Of a DNA stretch of 64,000 nucleotides, positions 4,244 through 33,041 are shown piece after piece; position 1 is the stretch's first letter; the number at the start of each line of letters is the position of its first letter. The notes under the pieces were generated by a model. The model was given only the letters and a program-made list of their open reading frames with translations. It did not search any database and was not told the origin of the DNA. The position numbers and the translations under genes were made by a program. This DNA comes from Streptococcus himalayensis (GTDB lineage Bacteria; Bacillota; Bacilli; Lactobacillales; Streptococcaceae), in the NCBI RefSeq assembly GCF_001708305.1, contig NZ_CP016953.1:1755501-1819500 (forward strand), written 5' to 3'.

Positions 4244-4271
4244 AAAAAGACAAGCATCACTTATCTTGTCT
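4244..4271 (-). terminator. Terminator of the signal-peptidase-like gene
   Basis: AGACAAG and CTTGTCT form a 7-bp stem that overlaps the last codons of the gene, followed on the minus strand by TTTTTATT. Confidence 0.75.
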
Positions 4272-4818
4272 TAATAAATCCAAATTCTTGCAAAGGGAGA
4301 AGACGGAAACTAATCACCCCTTTTATCTGTTGTTTTTCAATCAAACCAAACTCACGGCTATCTTTCATATTGGTCCGATCATCATTTAAAACTAAGTACA
4401 GACCTGCTGGCACTGTTTCTGAATCGGAATGCGTTAAGGTCTGAATGGTAAAATCATGGGTGAAATATTCGCCTGTACTTGGCTTGGCTAGATACCTATC
4501 CTTATCTTTGGTCAGGTATTCTTCTTCTTTAATCTTATGGTTTAAATAGAGGACATCATCCATATATACCACCGAATCGTCCTCTATCGCAACGATACGG
4601 CCGACATAGTCCTTTCCATCAACCTCATAAAGAACCAAATCTTGGCGTCGGATTTTTTCGACCTTATTGGCTAATACGATATTTCCCTTGCTAATATCGC
4701 GGTTCTCATCTTTGGTCTCTACCTGATAAGGCTCAAATACAAAGGCTCTCAGTGCAACCAAGCCAAGGATGACTAGAACAATCACAATGATATTTCGGAT
4801 TAAATCTCTCTTAACCAT
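4261..4818 (-). CDS. sipA: Signal peptidase I-like protein without catalytic dyad (SipA-like)
   Basis: This 185-aa protein has one N-terminal membrane anchor (about residues 8-28) and the S26 signal-peptidase fold, recognisable from LVLYEVDGKDYVGRIVAIED and the later VLNDDRTNMKDSREFG block. The SMxPTL box that carries the catalytic Ser is replaced by VETKDENRDISKGN. The position of the general-base Lys in the family's YxKRV motif reads YVGRIV. This is the pattern of Streptococcus pyogenes SipA (Asp and Gly in place of Ser and Lys), a pilus-assembly factor that cannot cleave peptides. It has its own promoter and lies 118 bp after a huge LPXTG protein gene. No pilin or class C sortase gene is nearby, so its client is unknown. 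Confidence 0.75.
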   Translation of the reverse strand: MVKRDLIRNIIVIVLVILGLVALRAFVFEPYQVETKDENRDISKGNIVLANKVEKIRRQDLVLYEVDGKDYVGRIVAIEDDSVVYMDDVLYLNHKIKEEEYLTKDKDRYLAKPSTGEYFTHDFTIQTLTHSDSETVPAGLYLVLNDDRTNMKDSREFGLIEKQQIKGVISFRLLPLQEFGFIKTR

Positions 4819-4936: not shown

Positions 4937-7900
4937 TTAGTCTTCTTTTTTACGGCGTTTTGCTGCTCCGAACAAGCCAAGACTTGCTGTAAGAGCTCCT
5001 AGAAGAGGCATCAAGGATGATGTTTCACCTGTCTTCGGCAACTCATTGCTTTGTGATTTCGCAACACGAGAACCACTATTTGAGGTAGAAGCTGTTGCTT
5101 CTGAACCCATAACTGTGCCTTTAGAAGCTGGTTTTGGCATTGGTTTTCCATTTGGATTTAGGTAGACACCATTTGGTCCAGCAATTGCTGTTCCTGTTGC
5201 CATATTGCCAAATTCATCAGTTCCTGTTGCTGTTACAGTTCCTCCATCTAATACATCTTCCTTAGGAATAAGCAGTGTTCCAGTTTCTGGATCTACCATT
5301 ACTCCGCCAGGAAGTGTAGTTGCTGGAATCCATTTACCTGTACTTGAATCTTTCACAATCGTAACAGTATATTCCATGCCGTCTTCACCTGGGAATTTAA
5401 CATCTACCTTCGTATTGTCTGCTCCTGGGATGATTGTCACAGATCCGTCTACATTAGGAGTCACTTTTGGCTCATCTGCAAAGTTGTCTTTCACGACAAT
5501 CTTAACTGAAACTGTTTCACTTGAACCATCTGGGTAAGTCACAACTACTGTTGCGTTCTTTTCACCTTCGGTTGAAGTATCAACTGGGTCCTTGAAGGAA
5601 ACTGTAGTACCTGCTGGCAGGTCTTTCAAGTTTTCGATTGAATCTTCTGCTTTTGGTGTTTCATTCAAGCCGACTGTTTGTTCCTTCGCTTTTGGATCAT
5701 TCTTATCGGCGTCTGTACGTTTGTCTTTCACGACAATCTTAACTGAAACTGTTTCGCTTGATCCATCTGGGTAAGTCACAACTACTGTTGCGTTCTTTTC
5801 ACCTTCGGTTGAAGTATCAACTGGGTCCTTGAAGGAAACTGTAGTACCTGCTGGCAGGTCTTTCAAGTTTTCGATTGAATCTTCTGCTTTTGGTGTTTCA
5901 TTCAAGCCAACTGTTTGATCCTTCGCTTTTGGATCATTCTTATCGGCATCTGTAAGTTTGTCTTTCACGACAATCTTAACTGAAACTGTTTCGCTTGATC
6001 CATCTGGATATGTCACAACTACTGTTGCGTTCTTTTCACCTTCGGTTGAAGTATCAACTGGGTCCTTGAAGGAAACTGTAGTACCTGCTGGCAGGTCTTT
6101 CAAGTTTTCGATTGAATCTTCTGCTTTTGGTGTTTCATTCAAGCCAACTGTTTGATCCTTCGCTTTTGGATCATTCTTATCGGCATCTGTAAGTTTGTCT
6201 TTCACGACAATCTTAACTGGAACTTCTTCACTTGAACCATCTGGGTAAGTCACAACTACTGTTGCGTTCTTTTCACCTTCTGTTGAAGTATCAACTGGGT
6301 CCTTGAAGGAAACTGTAGTGCCCGCTGGCAGGTCTTTCAAGTTTTCAATTGAATCTTCTGCTTTTGGTGTTTCATTCAAGCCGACTGTTTGTTCCTTCGC
6401 TTTTGGATCATTCTTATCAGCATCTGTACGTTTGTCTTTCACGACAATCTTAACTGGAACTTCTTCACTTGATCCATCTGGGTAAGTCACAACTACTGTT
6501 GCGTTCTTTTCACCTTCGGTTGAAGTATCAACTGGGTCCTTGAAGGAAACTGTAGTGCCCGCTGGCAGGTCTTTCAAGTTTTCAATTGAATCTTCTGCTT
6601 TTGGTGTTTCATTCAAGCCGACTGTTTGTTCCTTCGCTTTTGGATCATTCTTATCAGCATCTGTACGTTTGTCTTTCACGACAATCTTAACTGGAACTTC
6701 TTCACTTGAACCATCTGGGTAAGTCACAACTACTGTTGCGTTCTTTTCACCTTCGGTTGAAGTATCAACTGGGTCCTTGAAGGAAACTGTAGTACCTGCT
6801 GGCAGGTCTTTCAAGTTTTCAATTGAATCTTCTGCTTTTGGTGTTTCATTCAAGCCAACTGTTTGTTCCTTCGCTTTTGGATCATTCTTATCGGCGTCTG
6901 TACGTTTGTCTTTCACGACAATCTTAACTGGAACTGTTTCGCTTGATCCATCTGGGTAAGTCACAACTACTGTTGCGTTCTTTTCACCTTCGGTTGAAGT
7001 ATCAACTGGGTCCTTGAAGGAAACTGTAGTACCTGCTGGCAGGTCTTTCAAGTTTTCAATTGAATCTTCTGCTTTTGGTGTTTCATTCAAGCCAACTGTT
7101 TGTTCCTTCGCTTTTGGATCATTCTTATCGGCGTCTGTAGTGACTGTTGGCTTGCTGTTTGGATCTTTCGGATCTGTACCAGCTTTTTTCTCATCTTCGT
7201 CACTAAATCCATCGTTGTCATCATCTGGATCTGTCACATCTGGCATTCCGTCGCCATCGGTGTCGCGTTGAACCTTGATGTCAAACGTTTCAGTTGTCTT
7301 GTTACCAGCTTCATCAGTCGCTGTAACCGTTACTGTGAATGGTTTCTCTTCATCTGTACCCCAATCAGCTACAGTTGGAGTACCTGAAATCACACCTGTT
7401 GTTGGATCGAAGGTAACACCTGTTGGAAGACCGTCAACAGTTACTGTTGGTGCTTTACCTGAATCATCTGTTGCTTTAACAGTGATTGGAGTGATTGCTT
7501 TACCTTCCACAACTGTTTGGTCACCGATTGCTTCAATAGTTGGTTTAGTAGTGTCTTTATCTGGTTCTGCTACTGTTACCTTAACTGGTACGATTTCTTT
7601 CGAACCATCACCATAAGTCACTTCAACTGGAATCGTGTATTCTGTTCCTGGAGCTGCATCTGAAGGAACAGTTACGCTAACCTTACCATCTCCGTCAACT
7701 GTCGCTGTTGTTCCTGCTGGAAGTGGAGTTGTTCCTGCTGGTTGCTCTGTTGAGATTGTGTAGGTTGGTTTTTTAGCATCTGCTGGTAATTCTGGTGAGA
7801 AGCTTGGTGCTTCTGTCGTCACTGCTTCACCTGGCTTACCGCTAGCGTCTGAGTAAGATGGGGTGTACTTGTCAGCGTCTGTAGTGACTGTTGGCTTGCT

Positions 7901-10900
7901 GGTTGGATCTTTCGGATCTGTCTTAGCTGTTTTCTCATCTTCGTCACTAAATCCGTCGTTGTCATCATCTGGATCTGTCACATCTGGCATTCCGTCTTTA
8001 TCAGTGTCGCGTTGAACCTTGATGTCAAACGTTTCAGTTGTCTTGTTACCAGCTTCATCAGTCGCTGTAACCGTTACTGTGAATGGTTTCTCTTCATCTG
8101 TGCCCCAATCAGCTACAGTTGGAGTACCTGAAATCACACCTGTTGTTGGATCGAAGGTAACACCTGTTGGAAGACCGTCAACAGTTACTGTTGGTGCTTT
8201 ACCTGAATCGTCTGTTGCTTTAACAGTGATTGGAGTGATTGCGTTAAATTCCACAACTGTTTGGTCACCGATTGCTTCAATCGTTGGTTTAGTAGTGTCT
8301 TTGTCTGGTTCTGCTACTGTTACCTTAACTGGGACAACTTCTTTAGAGCCATCACCATAGGTTACTTCAACTGGAATCGTGTACTCTGTTCCTGGAGTTG
8401 CATCTGAAGGGACAGTTACGCTAACCTTACCATCTCCGTCAACTGTCGCTGTTGTTCCTGCTGGAAGCGGAGTTGTTCCTGCTGGTTGCTCTGTTGAGAT
8501 TGTGTAGGTTGGTTTTTTAGCATCTGCTGGTAATTCTGGACTGAAGGTTGGCGCTTTTGTCGTCACTGCTTCACCTGGCTTACCGCTAGCGTCTGAGTAA
8601 GATGGGGTGTACTTGTCAGCGTCTGTAGTGACTGTTGGCTTGCTGGTTGGATCTTTCGGATCTGTCTTAGCTGTTTTCTCATCTTCGTCACTAAATCCGT
8701 CGTTGTCATCATCTGGATCTGTCACATCTGGCATTCCGTCTTTATCAGTGTCGCGTTGAACCTTGATGTCAAACGTTTCAGTTGTCTTGTTACCAGCTTC
8801 ATCAGTCGCTGTAACCGTTACTGTGAATGGTTTCTCTTCATCTGTGCCCCAATCAGCTACAGTTGGAGTACCTGAAATCACACCTGTTGTTGGATCGAAG
8901 GTAACACCTGTTGGAAGACCGTCAACAGTTACTGTCGGTGCTTTACCTGAATCATCTGTTGCTTTAACAGTGATTGGAGTGATTGCGTTAAATTCCACAA
9001 CTGTTTGGTCACCGATTGCTTCAATCGTTGGTTTAGTAGTGTCTTTATCTGGTTCTGCTACTGTTACCTTAACTGGGACAACTTCTTTAGAGCCATCGCC
9101 ATAGGTTACTTCAACTGGAATCGTGTACTCTGTTCCTGGAGTTGCATCTGAAGGAACAGTTACGCTAACTTTACCATCTCCGTCAACTGTCGCTGTTGTT
9201 CCTGCTGGAAGCGGAGTTGTTCCTGCTGGTTGATCAGTTGAGATTGTGTAGGTTGGTTTTTTAGCATCTGCTGGTAATTCTGGACTGAAGGTTGGCGCTT
9301 TTGTCGTCACTGCTTCACCTGGCTTACCGCTAGCGTCTGAGTAAGATGGGGTGTACTTGTCTTTATCTGAATCAGCAACTGTCACTTTGACTGCTGCATC
9401 GTCTTTGCTTCCATCTTCGTAGACAACTTTTACTGGAACAGTATATGCTGTACCAGGAGCAGTGCCCTCTGGGATTGGAAGAGTTACAACGCCTGTGTTT
9501 GGATCGATTTGAGCATCTGCTGGAGCATTATCGCCCAATTCATATTTCACACCGGTTGGTGTAGCTTCAGTGCCTCCATTTTCAGTAAAGGTTGGGGCTT
9601 TAGAAGTAGCAGTTGCACCAGCTTTTGCGCTTGTGTCTTCATAAGCTGGGGTGTATTTGTCATTGTCAGAAGCAACAACTGAAATTTTAGCTTTTACTTC
9701 TTCGCTCGAACCGTCCTCATAAGTAACCTTAACTGGAACAGTGAACACAGTACCAGGACCAGCACTGTCTCCGATTGGCATAGTGACTACACCTGTCGTT
9801 GGATCTACGCTCGCTCCTACTGGTGGCTCTTCGCCCAATTCATACTTCGTAACTGTCGGAGTTGCTGGCGCACCTTCTTTATCTGTAAAGGTTGGCGCTT
9901 TAGTAGTAGCGGCTTTGCCAGCTTTTGCTTCTGTATCCGCATAAGCCGGGGTATACTTGTCTTTGTCCGACTCTGTTACTGTGAATTTAACTGTTGCAGT
10001 GTCTTCTGTTTGATCGTTATAGGTCACAGTAACTGGAACAGTGATTTCCGTACCTGCAGCAAGACCCTCTGGAGTAGTCACAGTTACGGCACCAGTTGAC
10101 GCGTCAATCGTTGCTGTCACGCCTGCTGGAAGTCCGCTCGTGTCTCCAAGTTTGTAGGTTACCGTTGCAGCTGGAGTTGCTGGTGCACCTTCTGTATTTG
10201 TAAAGGTAGGGACTGCTGATGTAGCTGATTGTCCAGCTTTCACCTCTGTATCCTCATAAGCCGGGGTATACTTGTCTTTGTCCGGTTTATTGATAAAGAA
10301 TTTAGCAGTTGTTGTTGCTGTTGTTCCATCTGCATATGTAACTTCAACATCAACGGTTGTATCTTCTGTCGGATTGTTCCAGGTGATGACACCGGTCTTA
10401 GAATCAATCGCAAATCCTGCTGGAGCAGTATCAGAACCATCTGCTGATACGAAATCGAATGTTGCTCCTTTTGGTGCTGGATTTTTCTCAACGTCTGGTG
10501 TGTGCTCAATATCAAATGTCGGAGCTGCAGAAGCTTTCTTCACTCCCAAATCGGAGTAGGTATCTTCATACTTAGGAAGTTCACGATAAACCGCTGTAAA
10601 TGAATCTTTTTGAATAGGATAGTTTGGAAGAGCTCCGTCTTTTCCTAGTGCGTATAATTCTGCAAAGTAAATCGTTGTCTTTTTAAGGTCGCTAGGAACC
10701 ATGAATGAACTTTCTGGAAGAGTTCCGTCTGGATTTACTTGCAATGGATCTGATTCTTGAACAACTTTTCCATTCTCATCTTTCCAGATAATCTTATAGG
10801 TTTCTCCGTGGTTTGGTGCCAATCCAGCTGTTTTTGTGCTTGCAGTCTCTCCTGGATGAGCCACATTTTTGAACGAATCGTAGTTGTAGATGTCAAATGT

Positions 10901-13267
10901 CAAATTGTCATTAACAGCTGCAAAGTAAACATTGGTCACACTGTCATTATTAATTACATCTCCATCTTGGATAACAGTATCCCAACGTGTTCCGATACCT
11001 TGAAGGTCAAATTTACCACCAGTACCACCTTTTGGCACATCGCCATAGAATGGTGTGTAGAAGGAAATGCCTTCTTTTTCTTCTGTCGTTACAAATACCC
11101 AGTCAGTATTGATGTGTTTAGACGCCTTGCTTAAATCTAATTTAGAGTCGCCACCGTCTGAAGTCCATGAACCGTATGAAGGATTTGGTGCCAAGACACC
11201 ATTCCACTCTGTACCTTTTTTGGTTTCACCAGTAATAGTATTCGTTACGTTGGCTTCATTCCTCAAGACTGTATCTCTTGCATTGATTAATCCATCAAAT
11301 CCCGGATTATTCCATTTCCAACCAAATGTTCCATTGAATTGAAGGGCAAAATCACCGTCGCCAGTTGTGGTAGTGGAAACTGTTTCAGCTACCCATTTTG
11401 CACGGTCAGCTTTTACTTGTTGAAGGATATAGGCACGTAGTTTATCTTCATTGGCCTGTGTCCATTTTGCACCACGGATATTAGAAGACTTATCTTTGTT
11501 AACAGATGGTTGCCATTCTGAACCAGCATCGATAAAGTTTTTCAATACTTCTGCATCATTCAATTGGGCAACAGCGTAGTCACTTAGATAAGAAGCATAC
11601 ACTTTAACTCCTGGTATACCAAGGTCAAATTTATTCTCACGACTCGCTAGGTCAACTGTAATCTGGTTCCCTGCTGGAGAGTTGTTGTTCCAGTAGATAG
11701 AACCTTTGACATACCCACCTTCGGTGATAACCGCTTCTGTTGGTTTTGCATCTTGACGCCATACATCATCGGTCTTATAAGCATACAAAATCTTAGCATC
11801 TGTCAAATTGTCATTTGGAAGACTTTGATTTGCTCCCGCAGTAATATCTTTTACAATGCCTTCAGGAGCAATTTGCTCATCCCCAAATGAGTAAAGAAGG
11901 GTGTATTTATTATTGTCTGGATTGATAGACCAGATACGCCATTTTTCTCCCTCTGGTAGAGCTGCATCGGCATCAAAGTGGTATAGTTTCCCATCAGCAC
12001 CGATGAAATCTGCCATTCCAATACCGAAACTACCATCTTCATTAGAAGTAGAGGTATAAATCGGAGAAGCATAGCCATTTTTTTCAAACCATTGGGCGTA
12101 GACTTTCACACCTGGAAGTGCACGAGTATAATTATCGCCGTGATCATTGATTCCTCCACCAAATTTAAGGCGGACACTTCCGCTTACACTACTATCTTCA
12201 TTTGGCGCAACGGTATTTTCAATGGCATCTGCTTCAGAAGTTCCACGATTTTTAGCAACCAGCGTATTGTGTGCTCTTGCTTTTGCAAGAATATCATTGG
12301 CTTGATTATCACGATTGATGACGCCTTTGGTGAGCTTGGTCAATTCTGCTGTGTAATAACGTTTTTCAATATCCGTCAGATTTTCCAAAGCCTTGATTTC
12401 TTTAACTGCATCTGTGTAAAGCTGTGAGCTTACTTTCCGAATGCCTGTTCCAGTTGGAATTGGCTCTCCTTGTGTTGGGAAAGCTGCTGCACGTTTACGA
12501 TTGCGCTCTGCTGCTTCACGGACAATCGCAGCAATCTCTTCAGGAGTCACTGCTGATTGAATACGTTTTACATAAGCTACTTTGTGTTGATCTGTAAGTG
12601 CTGCAAAATCATTAACTGATGTTGCTGCGCTAAGTTTTGTATCATCAAGTGAAACAGTTTTTTCCTCAGCTGGTGCTGCTTTAGTCGTTGATTCTTCTTT
12701 TGCAGTTTCAAGAACAACTGGCGCAGTCACTTCTTCAAATGCTGCAGCTGATTCTGCTACTTTTTCTTTAGAAGATTTGGCTTCTACTGCCTTTTCGTTA
12801 TTTTTTGTTTCAGAAGCAATCTTTGTATTTGCGTCTGCTTGGGTCGCAAAAGCAACAATTTCTTGAATAGCGCTCTCAGAAGTTGCATTTGAAATATCTG
12901 CTAAAAATTGAGCTTTTTGAGAAGCTGTTAAATTCGCTAAATTCTCTACAACAGCTTTTGCCGCTGCCTTTTCTGCAGAAAGATCAATAGCAGCTGTTTC
13001 AACCGCTTTTTCTTCCACAACAGCAGATGAAGACGTTGCAGCTTCTACCGCAGGAGTTGCTAAGTTCTCTCTTTCTTCACTAACCAAAGCAACTTCAGAA
13101 GTTGGAACAGTTGATTCTTCAACATTATCTGCTGCTGCAGTATTTGCCAACCCTAAGGTCATAACGGTACCAAGAAGAACACTTGCTGCGCCAAAATGAT
13201 ATTTTCTGACGGAGAAGCGTTGGTTCAAGCTGTACCAATCAAATTTGTTTTTCTTGTTATTTTTCAC
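4937..13267 (-). CDS. Giant LPXTG cell-wall-anchored repeat adhesin (2776 aa)
   Basis: This is a sortase-anchored surface protein. A YSIRK-like signal (YSLNQRFSVRKYHFGAAS) starts at about residue 12, and the sorting signal LPKTGE begins at residue 2743, followed by a hydrophobic segment and RRKKED. Domain order: Ala-rich helical region with GA-like three-helix stretches (about 50-330); a unique, probably adhesive, beta-rich region (about 350-990); Rib-like domains beginning DKYTPAY (about 996-1300); three 248-residue units of Rib-like, Ig-like and calcium-loop (TSP3-type, DPDDDNDGFSDEDE) domains (about 1302-2045); then seven 79-residue Rib repeats (about 2045-2597). The start is GTG, with AGGGGTG eight bases upstream. 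It is the likely ligand-binding stalk protein for SrtA; the ligand is unknown. Confidence 0.93.
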   Translation of the reverse strand: MKNNKKNKFDWYSLNQRFSVRKYHFGAASVLLGTVMTLGLANTAAADNVEESTVPTSEVALVSEERENLATPAVEAATSSSAVVEEKAVETAAIDLSAEKAAAKAVVENLANLTASQKAQFLADISNATSESAIQEIVAFATQADANTKIASETKNNEKAVEAKSSKEKVAESAAAFEEVTAPVVLETAKEESTTKAAPAEEKTVSLDDTKLSAATSVNDFAALTDQHKVAYVKRIQSAVTPEEIAAIVREAAERNRKRAAAFPTQGEPIPTGTGIRKVSSQLYTDAVKEIKALENLTDIEKRYYTAELTKLTKGVINRDNQANDILAKARAHNTLVAKNRGTSEADAIENTVAPNEDSSVSGSVRLKFGGGINDHGDNYTRALPGVKVYAQWFEKNGYASPIYTSTSNEDGSFGIGMADFIGADGKLYHFDADAALPEGEKWRIWSINPDNNKYTLLYSFGDEQIAPEGIVKDITAGANQSLPNDNLTDAKILYAYKTDDVWRQDAKPTEAVITEGGYVKGSIYWNNNSPAGNQITVDLASRENKFDLGIPGVKVYASYLSDYAVAQLNDAEVLKNFIDAGSEWQPSVNKDKSSNIRGAKWTQANEDKLRAYILQQVKADRAKWVAETVSTTTTGDGDFALQFNGTFGWKWNNPGFDGLINARDTVLRNEANVTNTITGETKKGTEWNGVLAPNPSYGSWTSDGGDSKLDLSKASKHINTDWVFVTTEEKEGISFYTPFYGDVPKGGTGGKFDLQGIGTRWDTVIQDGDVINNDSVTNVYFAAVNDNLTFDIYNYDSFKNVAHPGETASTKTAGLAPNHGETYKIIWKDENGKVVQESDPLQVNPDGTLPESSFMVPSDLKKTTIYFAELYALGKDGALPNYPIQKDSFTAVYRELPKYEDTYSDLGVKKASAAPTFDIEHTPDVEKNPAPKGATFDFVSADGSDTAPAGFAIDSKTGVITWNNPTEDTTVDVEVTYADGTTATTTAKFFINKPDKDKYTPAYEDTEVKAGQSATSAVPTFTNTEGAPATPAATVTYKLGDTSGLPAGVTATIDASTGAVTVTTPEGLAAGTEITVPVTVTYNDQTEDTATVKFTVTESDKDKYTPAYADTEAKAGKAATTKAPTFTDKEGAPATPTVTKYELGEEPPVGASVDPTTGVVTMPIGDSAGPGTVFTVPVKVTYEDGSSEEVKAKISVVASDNDKYTPAYEDTSAKAGATATSKAPTFTENGGTEATPTGVKYELGDNAPADAQIDPNTGVVTLPIPEGTAPGTAYTVPVKVVYEDGSKDDAAVKVTVADSDKDKYTPSYSDASGKPGEAVTTKAPTFSPELPADAKKPTYTISTDQPAGTTPLPAGTTATVDGDGKVSVTVPSDATPGTEYTIPVEVTYGDGSKEVVPVKVTVAEPDKDTTKPTIEAIGDQTVVEFNAITPITVKATDDSGKAPTVTVDGLPTGVTFDPTTGVISGTPTVADWGTDEEKPFTVTVTATDEAGNKTTETFDIKVQRDTDKDGMPDVTDPDDDNDGFSDEDEKTAKTDPKDPTSKPTVTTDADKYTPSYSDASGKPGEAVTTKAPTFSPELPADAKKPTYTISTEQPAGTTPLPAGTTATVDGDGKVSVTVPSDATPGTEYTIPVEVTYGDGSKEVVPVKVTVAEPDKDTTKPTIEAIGDQTVVEFNAITPITVKATDDSGKAPTVTVDGLPTGVTFDPTTGVISGTPTVADWGTDEEKPFTVTVTATDEAGNKTTETFDIKVQRDTDKDGMPDVTDPDDDNDGFSDEDEKTAKTDPKDPTSKPTVTTDADKYTPSYSDASGKPGEAVTTEAPSFSPELPADAKKPTYTISTEQPAGTTPLPAGTTATVDGDGKVSVTVPSDAAPGTEYTIPVEVTYGDGSKEIVPVKVTVAEPDKDTTKPTIEAIGDQTVVEGKAITPITVKATDDSGKAPTVTVDGLPTGVTFDPTTGVISGTPTVADWGTDEEKPFTVTVTATDEAGNKTTETFDIKVQRDTDGDGMPDVTDPDDDNDGFSDEDEKKAGTDPKDPNSKPTVTTDADKNDPKAKEQTVGLNETPKAEDSIENLKDLPAGTTVSFKDPVDTSTEGEKNATVVVTYPDGSSETVPVKIVVKDKRTDADKNDPKAKEQTVGLNETPKAEDSIENLKDLPAGTTVSFKDPVDTSTEGEKNATVVVTYPDGSSEEVPVKIVVKDKRTDADKNDPKAKEQTVGLNETPKAEDSIENLKDLPAGTTVSFKDPVDTSTEGEKNATVVVTYPDGSSEEVPVKIVVKDKRTDADKNDPKAKEQTVGLNETPKAEDSIENLKDLPAGTTVSFKDPVDTSTEGEKNATVVVTYPDGSSEEVPVKIVVKDKLTDADKNDPKAKDQTVGLNETPKAEDSIENLKDLPAGTTVSFKDPVDTSTEGEKNATVVVTYPDGSSETVSVKIVVKDKLTDADKNDPKAKDQTVGLNETPKAEDSIENLKDLPAGTTVSFKDPVDTSTEGEKNATVVVTYPDGSSETVSVKIVVKDKRTDADKNDPKAKEQTVGLNETPKAEDSIENLKDLPAGTTVSFKDPVDTSTEGEKNATVVVTYPDGSSETVSVKIVVKDNFADEPKVTPNVDGSVTIIPGADNTKVDVKFPGEDGMEYTVTIVKDSSTGKWIPATTLPGGVMVDPETGTLLIPKEDVLDGGTVTATGTDEFGNMATGTAIAGPNGVYLNPNGKPMPKPASKGTVMGSEATASTSNSGSRVAKSQSNELPKTGETSSLMPLLGALTASLGLFGAAKRRKKED
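5477..7135 (-). repeat. Seven tandem 237-bp repeats inside the adhesin gene
   Basis: Seven copies of a 237-bp (79-codon) unit lie in perfect register, with equivalent points at 5592, 5829, 6066, 6303, 6540, 6777 and 7014. Units encode Rib/alpha-like domains starting DADKNDPKAK and ending VKIVVKD. They are nearly identical, differing at a few codons (KEQ/KDQ, SSETVPV/SSEEVPV/SSETVSV), the mark of recent homogenisation. Confidence 0.95.
7134..9365 (-). repeat. Three tandem 744-bp repeats inside the adhesin gene
   Basis: Three 744-bp (248-codon) units have equivalent points at 7275, 8019 and 8763. Each encodes a Rib-like domain (DKYTPSYSDASGKPGEAVTT), an Ig-like domain with the TGVISGTPTVADW block, and an acidic calcium-loop segment. 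The unit nearest the C-terminus differs most (GKAITPI instead of FNAITPI, DGDGMPD instead of DKDGMPD). Confidence 0.93.
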
Positions 13268-13356
13268 AAGTAAACACCCCTTTGTATTTTTTTAAACAGC
13301 ATAGATGGACTGTGTATCGCTTTCCAATCTCACAACCAGATTATGCCACATAATAT

Positions 13357-13384
13357 ATTATACTCCCCCCCCCTAAAAAATCAA
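13357..13384 (-). promoter_or_regulatory. Adhesin promoter with nine-G tract in the spacer
   Basis: On the minus strand TTGATT (13379-13384) and TATAAT (13357-13362) are separated by 16 bp, nine of which are an unbroken G run (C run at 13365-13373 on the plus strand). The transcript would carry an untranslated leader of roughly 80 nt to the GTG. Length change of the G run would alter the spacer and so promoter strength. Confidence 0.8.
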
Positions 13385-13545
13385 GCAGAAGTGCTTATTT
13401 TTTCTACAATTTTATAAAATCTTTCTATTTTTTTGGTAATATTTATCAGGAAAATAGCTATATTCTGCTATTTTGATACGTTCCCTAGCGGATATAACAT
13501 CTATATCGATACATCAATCTAACACCCTCCTCTAGTCTGCTCAGT

Positions 13546-13652
13546 TTATACTCGTCAAAAATCAAAATCTGATGTCGTTAACTCACCTTGCTGAACTTCA
13601 GTTCTAGCTACGATTTCGTTGCCTAGTCAGATTTTGATTTTTATAGAGTATT
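13546..13652 (+). repeat. Dispersed intergenic repeat, copy 1
   Basis: This 107-bp element begins ATACTCGTCAAAAATCAAAA and ends GATTTTTATAGAGTATT; its ends are imperfect inverted repeats. Related copies lie at 17228-17446 (inverted) and 60853-61143. No coding potential is visible. Confidence 0.75.
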
Positions 13653-13697
13653 ACCATTCATTCATCTAGTTTCCGAACAGTTTTAATAGATAAAAAT

Positions 13698-13735
13698 AAA
13701 ACGAGAGAGGGATTGCTCCTTCTTTCTCGTTTCTT
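13698..13735. terminator. Bidirectional terminator-like hairpin after thrB
   Basis: AAACGAGAGAGG pairs with CTTTCTCGTTT, with T-rich tails on both strands (TTTTTT on plus, TTTTATTTTTA on minus). It is about 170 bp beyond the thrB stop. The stretch between holds a second, plus-strand-only hairpin (AGCAA...TTGCT plus seven T, about 13864-13903) with no plus-strand gene in front of it. Confidence 0.55.
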
Positions 13736-13908
13736 TTTTGTATTTTCCATTTCAGCTCTACTCTTTACAAAAGCAAGCCCTTTACTAGTGAGAATTTCTT
13801 AGACACTCTATGGAAAACCCACGAAGTTGGTTCATTTTCTACAGTCCACGACTGAACAATAACTACAGCAATTCTCCTCCAAGAAAGGTAATGAGTTGCT
13901 TTTTTTCG

Positions 13909-14772
13909 TTATTCAACACGAACGCCTGCTGTGTCTACAGTCAATTCAAACACTTCACCATTTAAATTCAAGGATAGTAATTCTTCCTTAATAATTGGCA
14001 TTTTGTCTGCTGGTGCTAAAATCATCACGGTTGGCCCTGCTCCTGATAAGTAGGTGGCATAAGCTCCATGTTTCTGACCAATCTGCTTGATAGAAGAAAA
14101 TTCAGGTACCAAGGATTGGCGGAAACGTTCATGAAATAAATCTGACTGAATGGATTGCCCCGCAGTCTCCAAATCGCCTTGTAACAAAGCTGCAATCGCT
14201 ACATTCGCGATACTGCTTGCGGCAACAGCCTCTTTGTAGGATAAATTTTCCGGCAAAACGCCACGACTATCCTTGGTTTTCAATTCATAAGCTGGAACAA
14301 AGGCTAGGAATTTACAAGCTGGAAATGACGCACGAACAGCTGAAACTTGGCCATTTTGAAAGCTCGCGATGACTAAATCCCCTAAAATCGCTGGTGCTAC
14401 ATTATCAGGATGCCCTTCCAGCTCTGTTGCCAACTGCAATTTCTCTTGGTCTGTCAACTGCAGATGTGCCAGTTGGTTGGCTAGCTCAATCCCTGCAACA
14501 ATAACAGAACTCGATGAGCCTAACCCACGTGCTAAGGGAATATCGCTCTCCATCTTCACACGATGAGGTGTCAAGTTTGGTGCGACCTCTTGAGCAATCT
14601 TTACCAAAAGATTCTCTTCGTTTCGAGGGATCTTATCTCCCAAATCATGATCGACCTGCCAAGCAGGAGTTTCCTCTAAAATTTCGATGGACAGATACTT
14701 ACTCACCGCAACACCGACCGAGTCAAAACCAGGGCCAATGTTTGCACTCGTTGCTGGTACTGTAATTTTCAT
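13909..14772 (-). CDS. thrB: Homoserine kinase
   Basis: This cytoplasmic GHMP-family kinase (288 aa) converts homoserine to O-phosphohomoserine in threonine synthesis. The N-terminal [20 protein letters not shown] and the ATP-binding [20 protein letters not shown] are typical. I start it at MKITV, one base after the hom stop codon, with GGGAG just upstream; the longer frame inside hom has no support. It is co-transcribed with hom. Confidence 0.96.
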
Positions 14773-14773
14773 C

Positions 14774-16060
14774 TTACTCTCCCAAAACCTTAAAGGTATT
14801 GACAAGTTGGAATTCCTCAGCAGCTTCCAGCTCTGCCACAACCTTTTCCAACTGGGTCTTGCTGACTGCATGCGTAATCACCACAACCCTAGCTAGCTCA
14901 CCATTCGTTCCGTCTTGCAAAATCTGTTTAAAGGAAATATTTTCTGCATTGAAAATCTCTGCCAAACGAAGGACTTGCCCCGTCTTATCGGGTGCTAAGA
15001 TAGAGAAATAGTAATGATGTTTCACATCTTCTGGTTTTGAAAGAACCACTGGGCGGCTGAATTCATTAAAGGCTTTGCCAATCGTGCCTTCTGTCATGCG
15101 GCGAGCGATACGGATAATATCTGCTACAACGCTTGTAGCAGTTGGTTTTTGCCCAGCTCCTGGTCCGTAATACATGGACTCGCCGATACCGATTGACTCC
15201 ACAAAGACAGCATTCATCACGCCATTCACAGATGCTAGCGGATGAGCTTTGGGCAAGAAAGTTGGCGTTACTTCTGCTGCAAGTCCAGAAGCTGTTTCTT
15301 CAATCGAACCGACTAATTTCACAACATAGCCTAATTCTTGAGCCATTGCGACATCTTCTGGGGTAATGCTACGAATTCCTTTATGGGCAACATCTTCAAA
15401 ATTCACAGCCATTCCAAAGGCAAATTGGCTGAGAAGCACCATTTTATAGGCTGCATCGATCCCATCCACATCATTTGTCGGGTCACTCTCTGCAAAGCCC
15501 AAGCGTTGTGCTTCTGCCAGCGCGTCTTCATAAGACCAGCCTTCCTCAACCATCTTCGTCATCATAAAGTTTGAAGTCCCATTGACTACCCCAAGGAGGC
15601 GTGTGACCTTATCTGAAGCAAGGGAATTCACCAAGGTCCGTAAAATGGGAATTCCTCCCGCAACTGCTGCTTCATAATAAAGGGCAACCTGATGTTTTTT
15701 AGCGATAGCCGTTAATTCTTGACCATGAACTGCCAATAAATCTTTATTAGCCGTAACAACGTGTTTTTTAGCCTCCAAAGCACGCGTGATAAAGGTTTTA
15801 GCCGGTTCAATGCGTCCCATCAATTCAACCACAATCGAAATGCTCTCATCTGATAAAATATCATCGACATTCGTCACAAAATGATAGTCATGACCTGCCG
15901 CAAGCAAACTCTCTTTTTCGGCATCATCACGCACCAAAACCTTGGCAATCTCTATTTCCTCTTGAGCTGCTTGGTAGATTTTTTCTGCGTTTTCTTTTAG
16001 AAGAAAAGGAACGCCACTGGCAACTGTCCCAAATCCTAGCAAAGCAATTTTTACTGACAT
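14774..16060 (-). CDS. hom: Homoserine dehydrogenase
   Basis: This 428-aa enzyme reduces aspartate semialdehyde to homoserine, the branch point to threonine and methionine. It has the Rossmann start [12 protein letters not shown], the catalytic domain ([28 protein letters not shown]) and a C-terminal ACT domain ([20 protein letters not shown]) for feedback control. A TGGTATAAT extended -10 lies just upstream (about 16094-16103). It forms an operon with thrB. Confidence 0.97.
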
Positions 16061-25923: not shown

Positions 25924-26047
25924 TTCTTATAGTCAGAATTTTATTATTTCTTTGAATCTACATTCGTAATTACAACATATTAGAATTATAACAGAGAATG
26001 TATATACCCCCCACACACACTTAACCATTCAAAAATAGAGTTAATAA

Positions 26048-26123
26048 TCATTAAATTTCAAAAAGAGTCCCTTTGTCTATAATTATTTATTTTTTACTAT
26101 AAAATAAATAATTATAGACAAAG
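26048..26123. repeat. 23-bp perfect inverted repeat, part of a dispersed intergenic element
   Basis: The arm at 26071-26093 (starts CTTTGTCTATAATTATTTAT) is perfectly complementary to 26101-26123, with a 7-base loop TTACTAT. About 55 bp from 26048 are alike to 54267-54325, where the right arm is degenerate. No protein is encoded. It lies beyond the eut operon terminator. Confidence 0.75.
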
Positions 26124-26219
26124 CAAATAGAAGATTTTTCAACGAATGACATGGTTGTTAGTCGATAAAAGATCATTTACATTCGAGCTATTTTAAGTTT
26201 CATTAGATAGAATGTAACC

Positions 26220-26268
26220 GCTCCATAATCTCTACAGGGGATTTACCCACTACAGAAAGTATAGAGCC
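26220..26268. repeat. Solo 49-bp palindromic end of the ISL3 element
   Basis: It matches the right terminal 50 bp of the IS at 43207-43256 with about four mismatches. The segment is itself an imperfect palindrome (GCTCCATAAT...AGTATAGAGC around ACCCACTACAG). No transposase or other end is nearby, so it is a relic or a miniature derivative. Confidence 0.75.
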
Positions 26269-26285
26269 TAATTTTCTACATCCAT

Positions 26286-26320
26286 GCAAAAATCAAGAGG
26301 ATGGCATTCCCATCCTCTTT
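26286..26320 (-). terminator. Terminator of the eut operon
   Basis: AAGAGGATGG pairs perfectly with CCATCCTCTT (loop GAATG on the minus strand), followed by GATTTTTG, 42 bp after the eutQ stop. Confidence 0.92.
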
Positions 26321-26361
26321 GGTAGTTATTTTAGTATCAAACTGTATTTTCTAAAACCATC

Positions 26362-26814
26362 CTATTGATTTTGCCAATCAGCAGGATATGTTACATAGAT
26401 AAAGCGAGCTTTTCCTTTTACAGAGAATTTAATATCACTGCCTTTTGGAATGAAGAGAATTTCTCCAGGACCAGCAGATAGGACTTCATCTCCTACCACG
26501 ATATCCAATTGTCCCTCAATCACATAATCCACTTCATCGTAATCAAGGTGCCATGGGAAAGTCGTATCTTCCATAGTCATCAGTCCTAGACCAAGACGTG
26601 GACTTTCTTTTAAATCAAGCAAGTCGCGAGTATAGACCTTATCTGTTGGGTTTCCAGTATCTAGGCGATCCTCAGGACGCACATCTAAGCTTGGAAGGGC
26701 GATCGAAGCAACACCTGATTTTCCGACTTGTTTAGCTCCTTTTTTAGCGAGCAATTCTTCTAATAAAATTTTACGAACCAATGATTCTAGTTCAGTACGA
26801 TTTACATCTGCCAT
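26362..26814 (-). CDS. eutQ: Ethanolamine utilisation cupin EutQ
   Basis: This 150-aa protein has a C-terminal cupin fold (FPWHLDYDEVDYVIEGQLDI, LSAGPGEILFIPKGSDI). EutQ has been linked to acetate kinase activity and microcompartment assembly. The first 20 residues (NRTELESLVRKILLEELLAK) form an amphipathic helix like known encapsulation peptides. It is shorter than enteric EutQ (about 230 aa), lacking the N-terminal module that here appears in EutT and in the protein at 28241-28876. It is the last gene of the operon. Confidence 0.92.
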   Translation of the reverse strand: MADVNRTELESLVRKILLEELLAKKGAKQVGKSGVASIALPSLDVRPEDRLDTGNPTDKVYTRDLLDLKESPRLGLGLMTMEDTTFPWHLDYDEVDYVIEGQLDIVVGDEVLSAGPGEILFIPKGSDIKFSVKGKARFIYVTYPADWQNQ

Positions 26815-26837
26815 AATTTATGATTCCTCCCTAGTTG

Positions 26838-27932
26838 TTAGGCTTCTTTTTTAGTCAATACAAAGGCAAGCAAGACAGCTGTAATACCACCAACTAATTT
26901 ACCAACCATCATCGGTACAATCATTTCTGAATTTTGACCAGCTGTAAATCCAAGGTGGTCACCGATAACAAATGATGCAGATACTGCAAAGGCAACGTTG
27001 ATGATTTTTCCGCGTTTGTCCATGTCTTTTAACATTTGGAACATTGCGATGTTATTAGCAAGTGATGCAACAAGACCTGCAGCCCCTACTTCATTCATTC
27101 CTAATGATTTTCCGATAGCTGACAATGGTTTGTTGGCTACTTTTGTAAAGACAGCCACAAGTCCAAAGGCTCCTGCTAACGTTACAGCGATAGAACCGAC
27201 AACCTCAAAGGCTTCTTTTAACGTATCTGCTCCTGATGGATACAAATTAATCAGCCATTCATTTCCAGTCAACAATTGTGCAGCCCCAAAAGCAAGACCA
27301 AGCGTTGCAATGACAACAATGATTTGTCCAAAGACTTCGAATCCTTTAATCATACCATCTGGTGCAAGAACCAAGCCTAGGAAAATCAAGGCAGACACGA
27401 TGATGATAGGAATCAAGTTCACAAGCAGTGTTCCAAAATCTAAACCTGGAACCAAAATTCCACCAATCAAGCAACCAACAGGAACGGTTACAAGACCGTA
27501 CAAGATTCCTCGTGCAAGCAAAGGTCTATCTTCTTTTTCAATAATTCCTAAGGCAACTGGAATTGTAAACACAATGGTTGGTCCCATCATAGAACCCAAT
27601 ACATAAGCCGCAAAGTTCCCAACAGCTGGATTTTCAGCTAATTTAAGTGCAAGCGGTGCTCCACCCATATCATTTGCAATGAAAGTCGTTGCAAAAATAG
27701 ATGGATCTGCTCCCACCAAACCATATAAAGGAACAATCACTGGTTTTAACACATCTGCCAGAAGCGGTGCCACAACCATAATCCCTGCCATAGAGAGCGC
27801 CAAGGCTCCCATTGCCATAATACCTTCTTCAAACTTTTCACTTAGTCCTAATTTTCCACCGATACACTTATCAACTGCACCGACAATCATAAATAGGACC
27901 ATGATGTAAATGATAATTTCATTTATACTCAT
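26838..27932 (-). CDS. eutH: Ethanolamine permease EutH
   Basis: This polytopic membrane protein (364 aa, about ten or eleven helices) starts MSINEIIIYIMVLFMIVGAVD and contains the family segments FATTFIANDMGGAPLALKLA and NNIAMFQMLKDMDKRGKI. EutH imports ethanolamine; it matters mostly when protonated substrate is scarce in uncharged form, as at low pH. It lies between eutN and eutQ, 23 bp from each. Confidence 0.95.
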   Translation of the reverse strand: MSINEIIIYIMVLFMIVGAVDKCIGGKLGLSEKFEEGIMAMGALALSMAGIMVVAPLLADVLKPVIVPLYGLVGADPSIFATTFIANDMGGAPLALKLAENPAVGNFAAYVLGSMMGPTIVFTIPVALGIIEKEDRPLLARGILYGLVTVPVGCLIGGILVPGLDFGTLLVNLIPIIIVSALIFLGLVLAPDGMIKGFEVFGQIIVVIATLGLAFGAAQLLTGNEWLINLYPSGADTLKEAFEVVGSIAVTLAGAFGLVAVFTKVANKPLSAIGKSLGMNEVGAAGLVASLANNIAMFQMLKDMDKRGKIINVAFAVSASFVIGDHLGFTAGQNSEMIVPMMVGKLVGGITAVLLAFVLTKKEA

Positions 27933-27955
27933 AATCTACATATCTCCTGATATTT

Positions 27956-28228
27956 TTACTCGTCAGGATATTCTACCTTATCAATAATCGCCACAACGAC
28001 CATATCTACTGGAACATCCTCTTTTGTGAGACTTACACGTGCAGAACTGCCAGTTGTTACCATGACTAGATCTCCTTCTCCAGCCCCGATACAATCTGCT
28101 ACAATAACTAGAGCAGGATCTGTTTGATGTTCATTTAGCTGTCTTTCGACTACTAAAAATTTCAAACCATTCAATTTTTCATCTTTCCTAGTAGCCCATA
28201 GACTTCCTTTTACTTTTCCAACAAACAT
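27956..28228 (-). CDS. eutN: Microcompartment vertex protein EutN
   Basis: This 90-aa EutN/CcmL-family protein forms pentamers that cap the corners of the shell. It begins MFVGKVKGSLWATRKDEKL and contains ADCIGAGEGDLVMVTTGSSA, both standard. It is the only pentamer gene in the window. Confidence 0.95.
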   Translation of the reverse strand: MFVGKVKGSLWATRKDEKLNGLKFLVVERQLNEHQTDPALVIVADCIGAGEGDLVMVTTGSSARVSLTKEDVPVDMVVVAIIDKVEYPDE

Positions 28229-28240
28229 ATCCTAACTCCT

Positions 28241-28876
28241 TTATTTTACAATTCTAATTTTATGCCGTTTTAAATAATCTTTTGCTAGTGCAGTGACAAT
28301 CATTCCTTTTTCGATGACAAAGGAATCACCCTCGCTCAAGTCCATTGCTTGAAGTTTTGCTTCCGTGATAAGATTTGTCTTACCTTTTGGACTTGCGGCT
28401 TTTCTCTCCAACTTTTGAGGAGCAGCTTCTTCTTTTTCAGCTAATTGAGTTCCTAAAATACTAAGCAATTGATTTTCTCGATAAAATTGAACACCGTATT
28501 TCTCTAATTTTACTTTTTGCTCTACTAATTCACGATACAAACGTGACCGTGCAGAGTGCTTATACTGCTCAACGTTAAAGGTTTCAAGAGACACATACAC
28601 TGGCTTGCCATCCAATAAACTGGTCAAGAGATTTGATTCCACTTCATTGGCAGGACAGAGTGATGCAATTCTCAAAAACGCATCCAAGGTTAAACAATCG
28701 ACAACTACAGCATCGGCACATTCACAATTGTTGACTACACGGTAGCCATTTTCAACCAATAGAGCATCTGTCCGATCTTTTCCAATCAAATAAACAGATG
28801 TTTCATTAGGCCCATCTTGGAGGTTTTCTAACAAACGGTCTGTAATTAGTTGGACAAGTTTGTCTAAATTTTCCAT
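28241..28876 (-). CDS. Conserved eut-operon protein of unknown function
   Basis: This 211-aa protein is of the type found only in Gram-positive eut operons and has no proven activity. The N-terminal helix (MENLDKLVQLITDRLLENLQ) looks like an encapsulation peptide. The centre has a mixed alpha/beta flavoprotein-like pattern. The last 45 residues (TEAKLQAMDLSEGDSFVIEK, ending ALAKDYLKRHKIRIVK) match the N-terminal module of EutT encoded at 29552-30199. I infer a compartment-lumen scaffold or accessory protein. Confidence 0.7.
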   Translation of the reverse strand: MENLDKLVQLITDRLLENLQDGPNETSVYLIGKDRTDALLVENGYRVVNNCECADAVVVDCLTLDAFLRIASLCPANEVESNLLTSLLDGKPVYVSLETFNVEQYKHSARSRLYRELVEQKVKLEKYGVQFYRENQLLSILGTQLAEKEEAAPQKLERKAASPKGKTNLITEAKLQAMDLSEGDSFVIEKGMIVTALAKDYLKRHKIRIVK

Positions 28877-28897
28877 TCCTTATAGCCTCTCTAGGTC

Positions 28898-29533
28898 CTA
28901 TTTTTTCTTGATAATGTGACCGCGCATTCCTTTTTTAAAGCCACAAGCATTGGCTTCATCATAATCAATGTGCATATAGGTTGCAAATTTAGGGCTAACA
29001 CGAATCACGACATCATCAAAAATCAACGGACGTTCCCCTTCAACCTTGACTTGCACAATTTCATGGTTTTCAACACCTGCACGAGCTGCATCTTCTGGTG
29101 TCATATGCACATGCCGTTTAGCTACAATCAAGCCCTTGTCAAGGGACACGACCTTATTGCCATTGGCTAAGACTACCCCAGGTGTTCCTTCAATATCGCC
29201 ACTTTCACGAATTGGCGCTTTAGTCCCTAACTGCAGACAGTCTGTCAATGAAACCTCAACTTGAGATTCCTTACGCACAGGTCCTAAAATAACAACATTA
29301 TGGAAGGAACCTTTCGGACCAATCAAGGTCAAACGTTCTTGGCAGGCATATTGTCCCGGTTGAGACAAATCCTTCACTTTCGTTAGTTGGTAGCCTGGAC
29401 CAAATAAAGCATCCAAATCTTTTTGGCTCAAATGGACATGACGTCCACTAGCTTCCACTTCAAAACTTCCTTTTGCATCTAATTCATCGTGAATTTTTGC
29501 TACAATCTTATCAACTAATTGATCTAATGACAT
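28898..29533 (-). CDS. pduL: Phosphotransacylase PduL (EutD role)
   Basis: This 211-aa zinc enzyme converts acetyl-CoA and phosphate to acetyl phosphate and recycles CoA inside the compartment. The two metal-binding boxes are SGRHVHLSQKDL and KRHVHMTPEDA. The first 20 residues (SLDQLVDKIVAKIHDELDAK) form a likely encapsulation helix. It takes the place that the unrelated EutD enzyme has in enteric bacteria. Confidence 0.95.
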   Translation of the reverse strand: MSLDQLVDKIVAKIHDELDAKGSFEVEASGRHVHLSQKDLDALFGPGYQLTKVKDLSQPGQYACQERLTLIGPKGSFHNVVILGPVRKESQVEVSLTDCLQLGTKAPIRESGDIEGTPGVVLANGNKVVSLDKGLIVAKRHVHMTPEDAARAGVENHEIVQVKVEGERPLIFDDVVIRVSPKFATYMHIDYDEANACGFKKGMRGHIIKKK

Positions 29534-29551
29534 TTCAGACCTCCTTTCTCG

Positions 29552-30199
29552 TTATTCACTAGCTATCAACCACAGTAAAACTTCAATGGATTTTAGTAAT
29601 TGAGACACCTTGCCAGCAAATATATCTCTATCAGCATCTGCTACAAGCTCAATTTCTTTTCGTAGTAGACAGGTTTCAAGATAGGTCTCATAACCTACCA
29701 AACGCCAAAGCGGTTCTTGATAATTCATCATCACCGTTTGTTGATCCAATTGTTTGCTAATTCGAATCGCTTGGAGTTCTACATGTGACAGTAATGTAGT
29801 GTGATAGTCTGAAATATCATCTAAGATATGATGTCCCACGATTTTTTCAAGAATGGACAATAAAATGCCTACTTGATCACACTTCTCATCTTGGAAAGCC
29901 AAATGTAATTCTCTTTGGCTCTTTAAAAAATAGCTATATAATCTGGTTAATCTAAACAGTAGCGGATACACAACAGAGTCTTCAATATTGGTAATAGGCT
30001 CTTTCTTTACTTCATATTGTGATACAGATGCTCTCCCTTTTTGCTGATTAGAATTAACCACCTTGATATGATGGTCATTTAGAAATCCTCTGGCAGCTGG
30101 GGTCAATTTTTCATGCCTTGCTAATTCAAAGACACCACTTTCCAAAATGCCAGACTCTCTAAACAACTTTCTAATCTTTGCTTCTGTAAGAACTGACAT
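29552..30199 (-). CDS. eutT: ATP:cob(I)alamin adenosyltransferase EutT, metal-motif-free type
   Basis: This 215-aa enzyme makes adenosylcobalamin for EutBC. The N-terminal module (LTEAKIRKLFRESGILESGV then LTPAARGFLNDHHIKVV) is followed by the helical transferase domain (YPLLFRLTRLYSYFLKSQRE, HHILDDISDYHTTLLSHVEL). The HX11CCX2C motif of Salmonella EutT is absent; the only Cys residues are isolated. This fits the Firmicutes class described as active without that metal site. A second, PduO-type transferase is encoded at 54517-55116. Confidence 0.85.
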   Translation of the reverse strand: MSVLTEAKIRKLFRESGILESGVFELARHEKLTPAARGFLNDHHIKVVNSNQQKGRASVSQYEVKKEPITNIEDSVVYPLLFRLTRLYSYFLKSQRELHLAFQDEKCDQVGILLSILEKIVGHHILDDISDYHTTLLSHVELQAIRISKQLDQQTVMMNYQEPLWRLVGYETYLETCLLRKEIELVADADRDIFAGKVSQLLKSIEVLLWLIASE

Positions 30200-30292
30200 G
30201 TATTCACATCCTTCTACCGATTTTGTTACGATAAGCTACCTAGTCACAAACGGATTTGATAGCTTATCTGTAACATCAATCAAACTGAAATT

Positions 30293-30568
30293 TTATTTTG
30301 GTAAAATCACTTCAACTTCTGCATGTGGACGTGGGATTACATGAACAGATACCAAATCACCTACGTTTTCGGCTGCTGCTGCTCCTGCATCTGTTGCTGC
30401 TTTTACTGCACCAACATCTCCACGTACCATAACTGTTACAAGTCCTGCACCTACTTGTTCTTTCCCAATCAAGGTAACGTTAGCTGCTTTTACCATTGCA
30501 TCAGCTGCTTCGATTGCGCCTACAAGTCCTTTTGTTTCTACCATTCCTAGTGCGTTTGCATTTGCCAT
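30293..30568 (-). CDS. eutM: Microcompartment shell protein EutM, second copy
   Basis: This 91-aa single-BMC-domain protein forms hexagonal facets ([40 protein letters not shown]). Over residues 1-90 it is identical to the copy at 30630-30920 except Lys for Arg at position 14, and it ends ILPK instead of ILPAGSSNE. The two DNA copies are nearly identical even at third positions. Confidence 0.95.
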
Positions 30569-30629
30569 TTTTGTTTTCCTCCGATAGTACGATTATTTCT
30601 TATTCTTATTTATTTTTATGGTTAATAGA

Positions 30630-30920
30630 TTATTCGTTGCTGCTTCCAGCAGGTAAAATCACTTCAACTTCTGCGTGTGGACGTGGGATTACATGAACAG
30701 ATACCAAATCACCTACGTTTTCGGCTGCTGCTGCCCCTGCATCTGTTGCTGCTTTAACCGCACCAACATCTCCACGTACCATAACTGTTACAAGTCCTGC
30801 ACCTACTTGTTCTTTACCAATCAAAGTAACGTTAGCTGCTTTTACCATTGCATCAGCTGCTTCGATTGCGCCTACAAGTCCTCTTGTTTCTACCATTCCT
30901 AGTGCATTTGCATTTGCCAT
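30630..30920 (-). CDS. eutM: Microcompartment shell protein EutM, first copy
   Basis: This 96-aa BMC-domain hexamer protein is the major facet component. It lies 27 bp after eutE in the transcript and 61 bp before its duplicate. The RBS region (GGAGGAAAACAAAA before the ATG) is shared by both copies, so the duplication included it. The tail AGSSNE distinguishes this copy. Confidence 0.95.
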
Positions 30921-30947
30921 TTTTGTTTTCCTCCGATACTATTATTG

Positions 30948-32426: not shown

Positions 32427-32432
32427 TCACGA

Positions 32433-33041
32433 TTACTCCTTTCTGGTAATTTTCATCAAAGCTTCAATCAACAGGCGTTTATTCGCAAACTTAATCTCTT
32501 TCTTTGACAAATCAATTTCTTTTTCACGGTAGGCAATACTCCGTAGTTTAACAACTTTTAATTTCCCCAATTCTTCTCTAGAAAACTTAGGAACTTCGCT
32601 ACTTGTTTCGACGATTGCCACTTCCTTTTTAGGTTCCGGTGCGGAAACAACTTCCACACTTTCTACTTCAATCGATTCGGTATTTTCTTGAGAAACAAGC
32701 TCGTCGAGTAGTTCTGGGGTTTCAGCGAGTGATGCCGTTTCCTCAACAACCTCTTTCTTTTCAGTTCGTTTTGTTCTAAAAAGAATATGGGTCTGGTCAT
32801 CCAACCGAGGAATAACATGGCTCGCTAAATAATATGGCTTATCGTGGACTGCATCTACTGCCGCATCTACTGCTGCCTTAACAGCACTCACATCACCTAC
32901 TAATTGAACAGTATTTAACCCTGCCTTAACAGTTTCAATATTAAGCAATGACACATTGGCTGCTTTTACTGCTGCATCTGCGGCAACCACAGCACCTAGA
33001 TAACCTTTTACTTCAATTAAACCGAGTGCTCTTTTTGTCAT
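32433..33041 (-). CDS. EutK-like shell protein: BMC domain plus C-terminal tail
   Basis: This 202-aa protein has one BMC domain (residues 1 to about 85: TKRALGLIEVKGYLGAVVAA, LVGDVSAVKAAVDAAVDAV), an acidic low-complexity linker rich in Glu and Val, and a basic C-terminal segment of about 45 residues (LGKLKVVKLRSIAYRE then SKKEIKFANKRLLIEALMK). The tail resembles SAP/Rho-N-type helix-extended-loop-helix modules rather than the winged helix of enteric EutK. A nucleic-acid-binding or cargo-binding role inside the shell is inference. Confidence 0.8.
   Translation of the reverse strand: MTKRALGLIEVKGYLGAVVAADAAVKAANVSLLNIETVKAGLNTVQLVGDVSAVKAAVDAAVDAVHDKPYYLASHVIPRLDDQTHILFRTKRTEKKEVVEETASLAETPELLDELVSQENTESIEVESVEVVSAPEPKKEVAIVETSSEVPKFSREELGKLKVVKLRSIAYREKEIDLSKKEIKFANKRLLIEALMKITRKE

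Follow-up and report, generated by a model that had tools for sequence, protein, structure and literature searches.

A run of nine guanines between the promoter boxes of a 2776-aa adhesin gene in Streptococcus himalayensis is, in our judgment, quite probably a contingency tract within a promoter of the sigma-70 type, where slippage would alter box spacing and thereby transcription. The promoter lies within a stretch of 64,000 nucleotides, hereafter the window, whose features are collected in Table 1. A sequence-only reading of this DNA had described TTGATT and TATAAT boxes separated by 16 nt that include nine unbroken Gs, and positions 13384-13357 of the minus strand read exactly so. This strand, unstated in that reading, is also the strand of the adhesin gene. 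Transcription is expected to start just past TATAAT (13362-13357), and of the 89 nt between the −10 box and GTG, the part adjoining the start is conserved in an alignment of related adhesin genes.

Table 1. Features of the window, numbered from its first base
Feature	Position	Strand	Basis or remark
Peptidase_S26 signal-peptidase gene	4261-4818	-	directly downstream of adhesin gene
Adhesin gene, 2776 aa, GTG start at 13267	4937..13267	-	ORF and Pfam: YSIRK signal, GA module, RibLong, Rib repeats, He_PIG, TSP3 repeats, LPXTG anchor
Seven Rib-part repeats, 237-nt spacing (79 aa), 83-97% identical to reference copy	about 5473-7194	-	repeat comparison
-10-to-GTG stretch, 89 nt: 5' leader with AAAGGGG ribosome-binding site	13268..13356	-	sequence read
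-10 box TATAAT	13357..13362	-	same in 5/5 aligned relatives and in one further relative with a contig that begins at the tract
Spacer TTTTAGGGGGGGGGAG, 16 nt	13363..13378	-	read directly from sequence
G9 homopolymer inside spacer	13365..13373	- (C9 on +)	run listing
-35 box TTGATT	13379..13384	-	read directly from sequence; promoter-site scan
Interspersed repeat, about 107 nt	13542-13651		between GHMP-kinase gene and adhesin promoter
Terminator-like hairpin	13699..13732	scored on + only	scan; between GHMP-kinase gene and adhesin promoter
GHMP-kinase gene, upstream of adhesin promoter	13909-14871	-	ORF and Pfam
Ethanolamine-utilisation microcompartment cluster	about 26000-41200		EutA, EutB, two BMC shell proteins, aldehyde dehydrogenase

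The possibility that a G run has simply fallen between chance boxes was weighed against shuffled sequence. Taken without the run, the two hexamers do not exceed background, as 13180-13920 holds three promoter-like sites where 2.9 are expected; of these three, TTGATT/TATAAT scores best (10 of 12 positions matched) and alone lies on the strand of the adhesin gene. A G9 run on either strand appeared in 8 of 100 dinucleotide shuffles of the window, so that the run by itself is weak evidence. No other run of G or of C in the window reaches seven (a list of runs of six or more also holds C6 at 3908 and 26007). However, the full combination TTGA...G7+...TATAAT occurred in none of 100 shuffled windows, relatives conserve the −10 box together with some of the leader, and both genus-wide controls given below were empty. 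We regard coincidence as extremely improbable.

The YSIRK signal, LPXTG anchor and Rib repeats found by Pfam uphold the view that the gene encodes a large surface adhesin. The hairpin that separates the GHMP-kinase gene from the adhesin promoter would shield that promoter. A DNA query that covered the interspersed repeat in the same interval retrieved 53 matches in this genome, and all except the window itself (52) correspond to the repeat, in whole or in part. The signal-peptidase gene on the other side of the adhesin possibly encodes a dedicated partner of it. Farther along the window lies the ethanolamine-utilisation cluster.

A DNA search of the genus gave matches in 22 of 284 genomes, mostly short signal-peptide or leader matches. 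Among the loci inspected (L030-L037, L048 and L051), L030-L034 and L051 are relatives of the 2776-aa adhesin. Read by eye, the spacers measure 17 nt (G9) and 20 nt (G11) in the two paralogs of genome G083, 17 nt in G009 (G4TG4), and 15 nt in both G028 (AAAGGGGG) and G027 (AAAAAAAGGGG), while in G221 the contig breaks at GGGTATAAT, beside sequence that we take to resemble an adaptor; the last four relatives are without a long pure G run in the available sequence. The automatic alignment places the −10 boxes in one column, with the −35 boxes not co-aligned; by eye, TTGACA or TTGAAA stands 17-20 nt from TATAAT in three of the promoters and TTGGAA or TTGCAG at 15 nt in two. The passage from a pure to an interrupted or short tract would fit a locked promoter in some lineages. 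It can also be read as static tuning, in which the G-tract is a functional, essentially fixed spacer whose stiff G-rich DNA sets promoter strength and which changes on evolutionary time only, as the G-rich spacers of 15-17 nt that are short or broken up in some relatives (G4TG4, AAAGGGGG) would not readily slip, and yet the −10 position is kept. We return to this explanation with the length data.

Long G runs were said to be rare in streptococcal DNA, and the 2,275,471-bp (2.28-Mb) genome of S. himalayensis indeed holds only ten runs of eight or more Gs, alongside 15 YSIRK matches. Five of the ten precede a YSIRK gene and are on the coding strand of that gene: those at genome positions 24878, 1334081, 1357634 and 1768866 (the G9 tract of the 2776-aa adhesin) within 300 nt of the YSIRK motif, and that at 1398845 at 633 nt. 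Another, at 328599, is upstream of a YSIRK gene on the opposite strand. The remaining runs stand before a protein with a SIRT-type leader and no Pfam match (569919), before a GtfA-like glycosyltransferase that is followed by a YSIRK/MucBP gene (1850361), before a bacterial sugar transferase adjoining a capsule-type glycosyltransferase gene (427515), and, as an A16-G18 compound run abutting TATAAT, before an MFS transporter gene (2173215; L055, G000:C1:2173205-2173222). Boxes in this genome and around the relatives' tracts were ranked by a simple match count, and on that ranking they were judged convincing on both sides in only four of the ten, namely 24878 (TTGACA-16-TATCAT), 569919 (TTGACA-19-TAAAAT), 1357634 (TTGATA-16-TATAGT) and the adhesin's own G9. 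The same ranking gave no −35 box at a workable distance for the A16-G18 promoter, which is a candidate for a switched-off state.

Of 284 congeneric genomes, 36 contain an exact-box version of the G-tract promoter, in 51 rows that represent 46 distinct loci; the other 248 were unmatched by this strict pattern, which undercounts promoters with imperfect boxes. Neither the reversed pattern nor the C-run version matched any of the 284 genomes, and the run is therefore tied to promoter-like boxes with G on the coding strand. At 29 of the 46 loci the G run directly abuts TATAAT. Based on a classification made partly by eye, 33 of the 46 downstream genes encode surface or secreted proteins (26 with Pfam support), comprising 11 YSIRK proteins, all above the Pfam cut-off, a further 12 that carry an LPXTG anchor, a pilin/SpaA domain or a KxYKxGKxW domain (L233 just at the cut-off), three CAP-domain proteins with a leader, and seven assigned by eye as signal-peptide proteins or by a shared N-terminus (among them L227, a relative of L086, without a Pfam match). 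Four belong to capsule or sugar functions (two LytR-CpsA-Psr, CpsB and an epimerase), and nine, including an ABC permease and an HPr kinase, are other or unclear, with no clear surface role. The Pfam scan covered 44 of the 46 loci, with L072 and L083 left out, and many of the proteins were clipped at the end of the fetched DNA. Two of the loci have identical counterparts in the separate contig scan described below: L140 of that scan equals L081 over 2462 bases (Streptococcus sp. Marseille-Q0941) and L153 equals L085 over 3030 bases (Streptococcus suis strain DE406T).

Nine loci (L063, L069, L071, L072, L077, L078, L081, L083 and L224) share by eye a cassette of roughly TTGACAAAnnnATTTC-Gn-TATAAT, which precedes different genes, several without a Pfam match, in several species. 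The cassette may be a spreading promoter module.

A phylum-wide trait was considered and rejected: in an even sample of the phylum, 13 of 398 genomes (our own included) matched the pattern and 8 of 398 the reversed pattern, compared with 36 of 284 and none in the genus. The genus, at 36 of 284, also exceeds the rest of the phylum sample, at 12 of 397 (p = 2e-6; the 397 include a further genome of the genus, which has no match). Separately, a contig scan run without a control gave at least 124 matches to G-tract spacer promoters in at least 119 stretches, including uncultured Clostridia, Bacilli and Saccharibacteria, and among the matches listed many in unrelated lineages seem by eye to precede signal-peptide proteins.

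The association with YSIRK genes was also examined independently of the promoter pattern, in 16 chosen genomes (nine with strict-pattern hits and seven without; 151 of 170 YSIRK positions used). Of 73 G8+ runs, 19 precede a YSIRK motif on the same strand by no more than 300 nt, compared with an expectation of 0.05, or of 0.4 on the assumption that runs fall only in intergenic DNA and that this makes up 12%; one such run is on the opposite strand and none falls within 800 nt downstream. When the 13 runs caught by the strict pattern are excluded, 13 of 60 are still upstream of a YSIRK motif (expected 0.04-0.3). All 19 come from the nine genomes chosen for their hits, among 62 G8+ runs, and in the seven genomes without a strict-pattern hit none of 11 runs is upstream of a listed YSIRK motif. 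The bias is therefore strong in genomes with many tracts, whereas the genus as a whole shows the trait only in patches.

Tract lengths were compared between pairs of promoters across species, with one genome per species and lengths taken from assemblies, not reads. L063 and L069 have identical flanks (300/300, 150 nt on each side) around G10 and G8. The flanks of L065 and L231 are 97% and 96% identical around G8 and G11, those of L084 and L230 100% and 96% around G14 and G15, and L086 and L233 match at 143/150 positions upstream and 150/150 downstream, with G14 in one and G4AG7 in the other. Two more diverged pairs also differ, L068/L234 (76% upstream, 89% downstream; G9 vs G10) and L066/L051 (74%, 87%; G9 vs G11), and two pairs have equal tracts, L069/L071 (94-95%; both G8) and L057/L058 (74%, 90%; both G9).

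Homopolymer lengths are error-prone in assemblies, and long G runs are hard to sequence. It could accordingly be argued that the true run length is not nine and that the differences between genomes are miscalls, all the more because the G221 contig broke exactly at GGGTATAAT. However, miscalls cannot yield the presence and position of the tracts or their strand and gene bias, and a three-G difference (G8/G11) or an internal A (G4AG7) exceeds a one-base miscall, which leaves an artefact very improbable in our view. Static tuning draws some support from the fact that every tract difference observed is between genomes of different species. Against it, L063 and L069 differ by two Gs despite identical flanks, as if the tract changed far more rapidly than point mutations arise, and the spacers of the 46 loci extend from 15 to 27 nt, some of these lengths being expected to be poorly active: 15 (4 loci), 16 (4), 17 (8), 18 (7), 19 (9), 20 (8), 21 (2), 22 (2), 24 (1) and 27 (1). 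A fixed spacer is thus unlikely, although less so than the other two alternatives.

Ordinary TTGACA-TATAAT pairs from our genome and one relative have a 17-nt spacer in 37 of 58 rows and a 16-nt spacer in 7 (among the 58, one site is listed twice and one is a G-tract promoter). Only 3 of 28 TTGACA members of the G-tract set have a 17-nt spacer, compared with 36 of 57 ordinary rows (p = 5e-6). The suggestion that one additional G would give the adhesin promoter an optimal 17-nt spacer fits the ordinary promoters. As 16 nt is close to the ordinary spacing, the present state is probably not an off state; it would be intermediate to active, and loss of one G would probably give 15 nt.

We therefore return to the contingency tract. 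The idea that the promoter is phase variable gains support from the recurrence of its layout in the genus, mostly before surface genes and with both controls empty, and from nearly identical promoters, at other loci and across species, that differ in tract length. Strand slippage during replication would add Gs to the G9 tract or remove them, each change would shift the distance and helical phase between the −35 and −10 boxes and so the rate of adhesin transcription, and a single clone would become a mix of cells in which the adhesin is abundant, intermediate or scarce. The tract, being upstream of the putative start site, would be untranscribed, and control would therefore act at initiation; transcript slippage and translational frameshifting were rejected on this ground. 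The adhesin tract would be one of a set, as the genome has further G-tracts at or close to the promoters of YSIRK surface-protein genes, and in other species of Streptococcus the same layout precedes genes for adhesins, pili and capsule. The tract and its place between the boxes are observed, as are the recurrence, the strand asymmetry, the bias towards surface genes and the differences in tract length across species at other loci; we infer that slippage is the cause, that it affects expression and is reversible, and that the adhesin's own tract behaves in this way.

Promoter-spacer tracts of this kind are already known in Gram-negative bacteria (fetA and porA; Bordetella fim, PMC1891110). In agreement with what the sequence-only reading had stated of other bacteria, the core promoters of fetA and porA, which are surface-protein genes of Neisseria, carry a homopolymeric tract, and changes in it alter −10/−35 spacing and expression (PMC5320596, PMC13293289). 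A 6C tract at fetA is not phase variable, while tracts of 8C or longer are (PMC13293289); the nine Gs of the streptococcal adhesin would fall within the latter range. As in porA/fetA-type promoters, a homopolymer of about eight or more lies between −35 and −10 (G9 in a 16-nt spacer), and the product is predicted from its domains to be surface-exposed. Unlike the outer-membrane proteins of Gram-negative Neisseria, the adhesin is a wall-anchored protein of a Gram-positive organism, with many loci in the genus and G on the coding strand at 46 of 46. The fimbrial promoters of Bordetella (fim2, fim3 and fimX) contain, together with a "fim box", a C-stretch whose length influences transcription (PMC1891110). 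The adhesin G9 is likewise a long C/G tract in the promoter of a surface gene. The Bordetella fim C-stretch acts through an activator.

Among streptococci, one-nucleotide indels in a T-tract (mostly 9-11) of HT(Spy1336-7) in group A Streptococcus change the R28 transcript level (PMC7098570). The adhesin resembles R28 as an LPXTG protein with 79-aa tandem repeats (Pfam Rib, RibLong and LPXTG; seven repeats). However, the R28 T-tract is located between divergent adhesin and regulator genes, whereas here the G-tract is inside the spacer and the upstream GHMP-kinase gene is on the same strand. The mga gene of group A Streptococcus varies by poly-C within the regulator gene (PMC10330708, PMC11868660) and Pil1 of S. 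gallolyticus by an attenuation-like mechanism (PMC3894217); both are cases of streptococcal surface phase variation, like our proposal, yet neither involves a promoter spacer. The streptococcal examples in the accessible text of a 2025 review of phase variation are mga and phase-variable methylation systems (PMC11868660). A streptococcal poly-G promoter spacer was not found in the open-access literature, covered in part and with few subscription papers, which is weak evidence of absence.

On balance we lean towards the broader view that Streptococcus species possess an unrecognised multi-locus system in which poly-G promoter-spacer switches set, each on its own, the level of adhesins, pili, KxYKxGKxW-signal surface proteins and capsule. 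Surface variation would then be combinatorial, as it is in Neisseria, and the adhesin would be one among as many as ten G-tract loci of its genome. The idea is open to immediate test on existing read archives. If it is true, the expression of major surface proteins in each isolate would be set partly by a count of Gs that ordinary genome comparison tends to overlook, which would bear on the comparison of strains, on vaccine antigens that seem to be there yet are silent, and on how individual cells differ in adhesion and biofilm.
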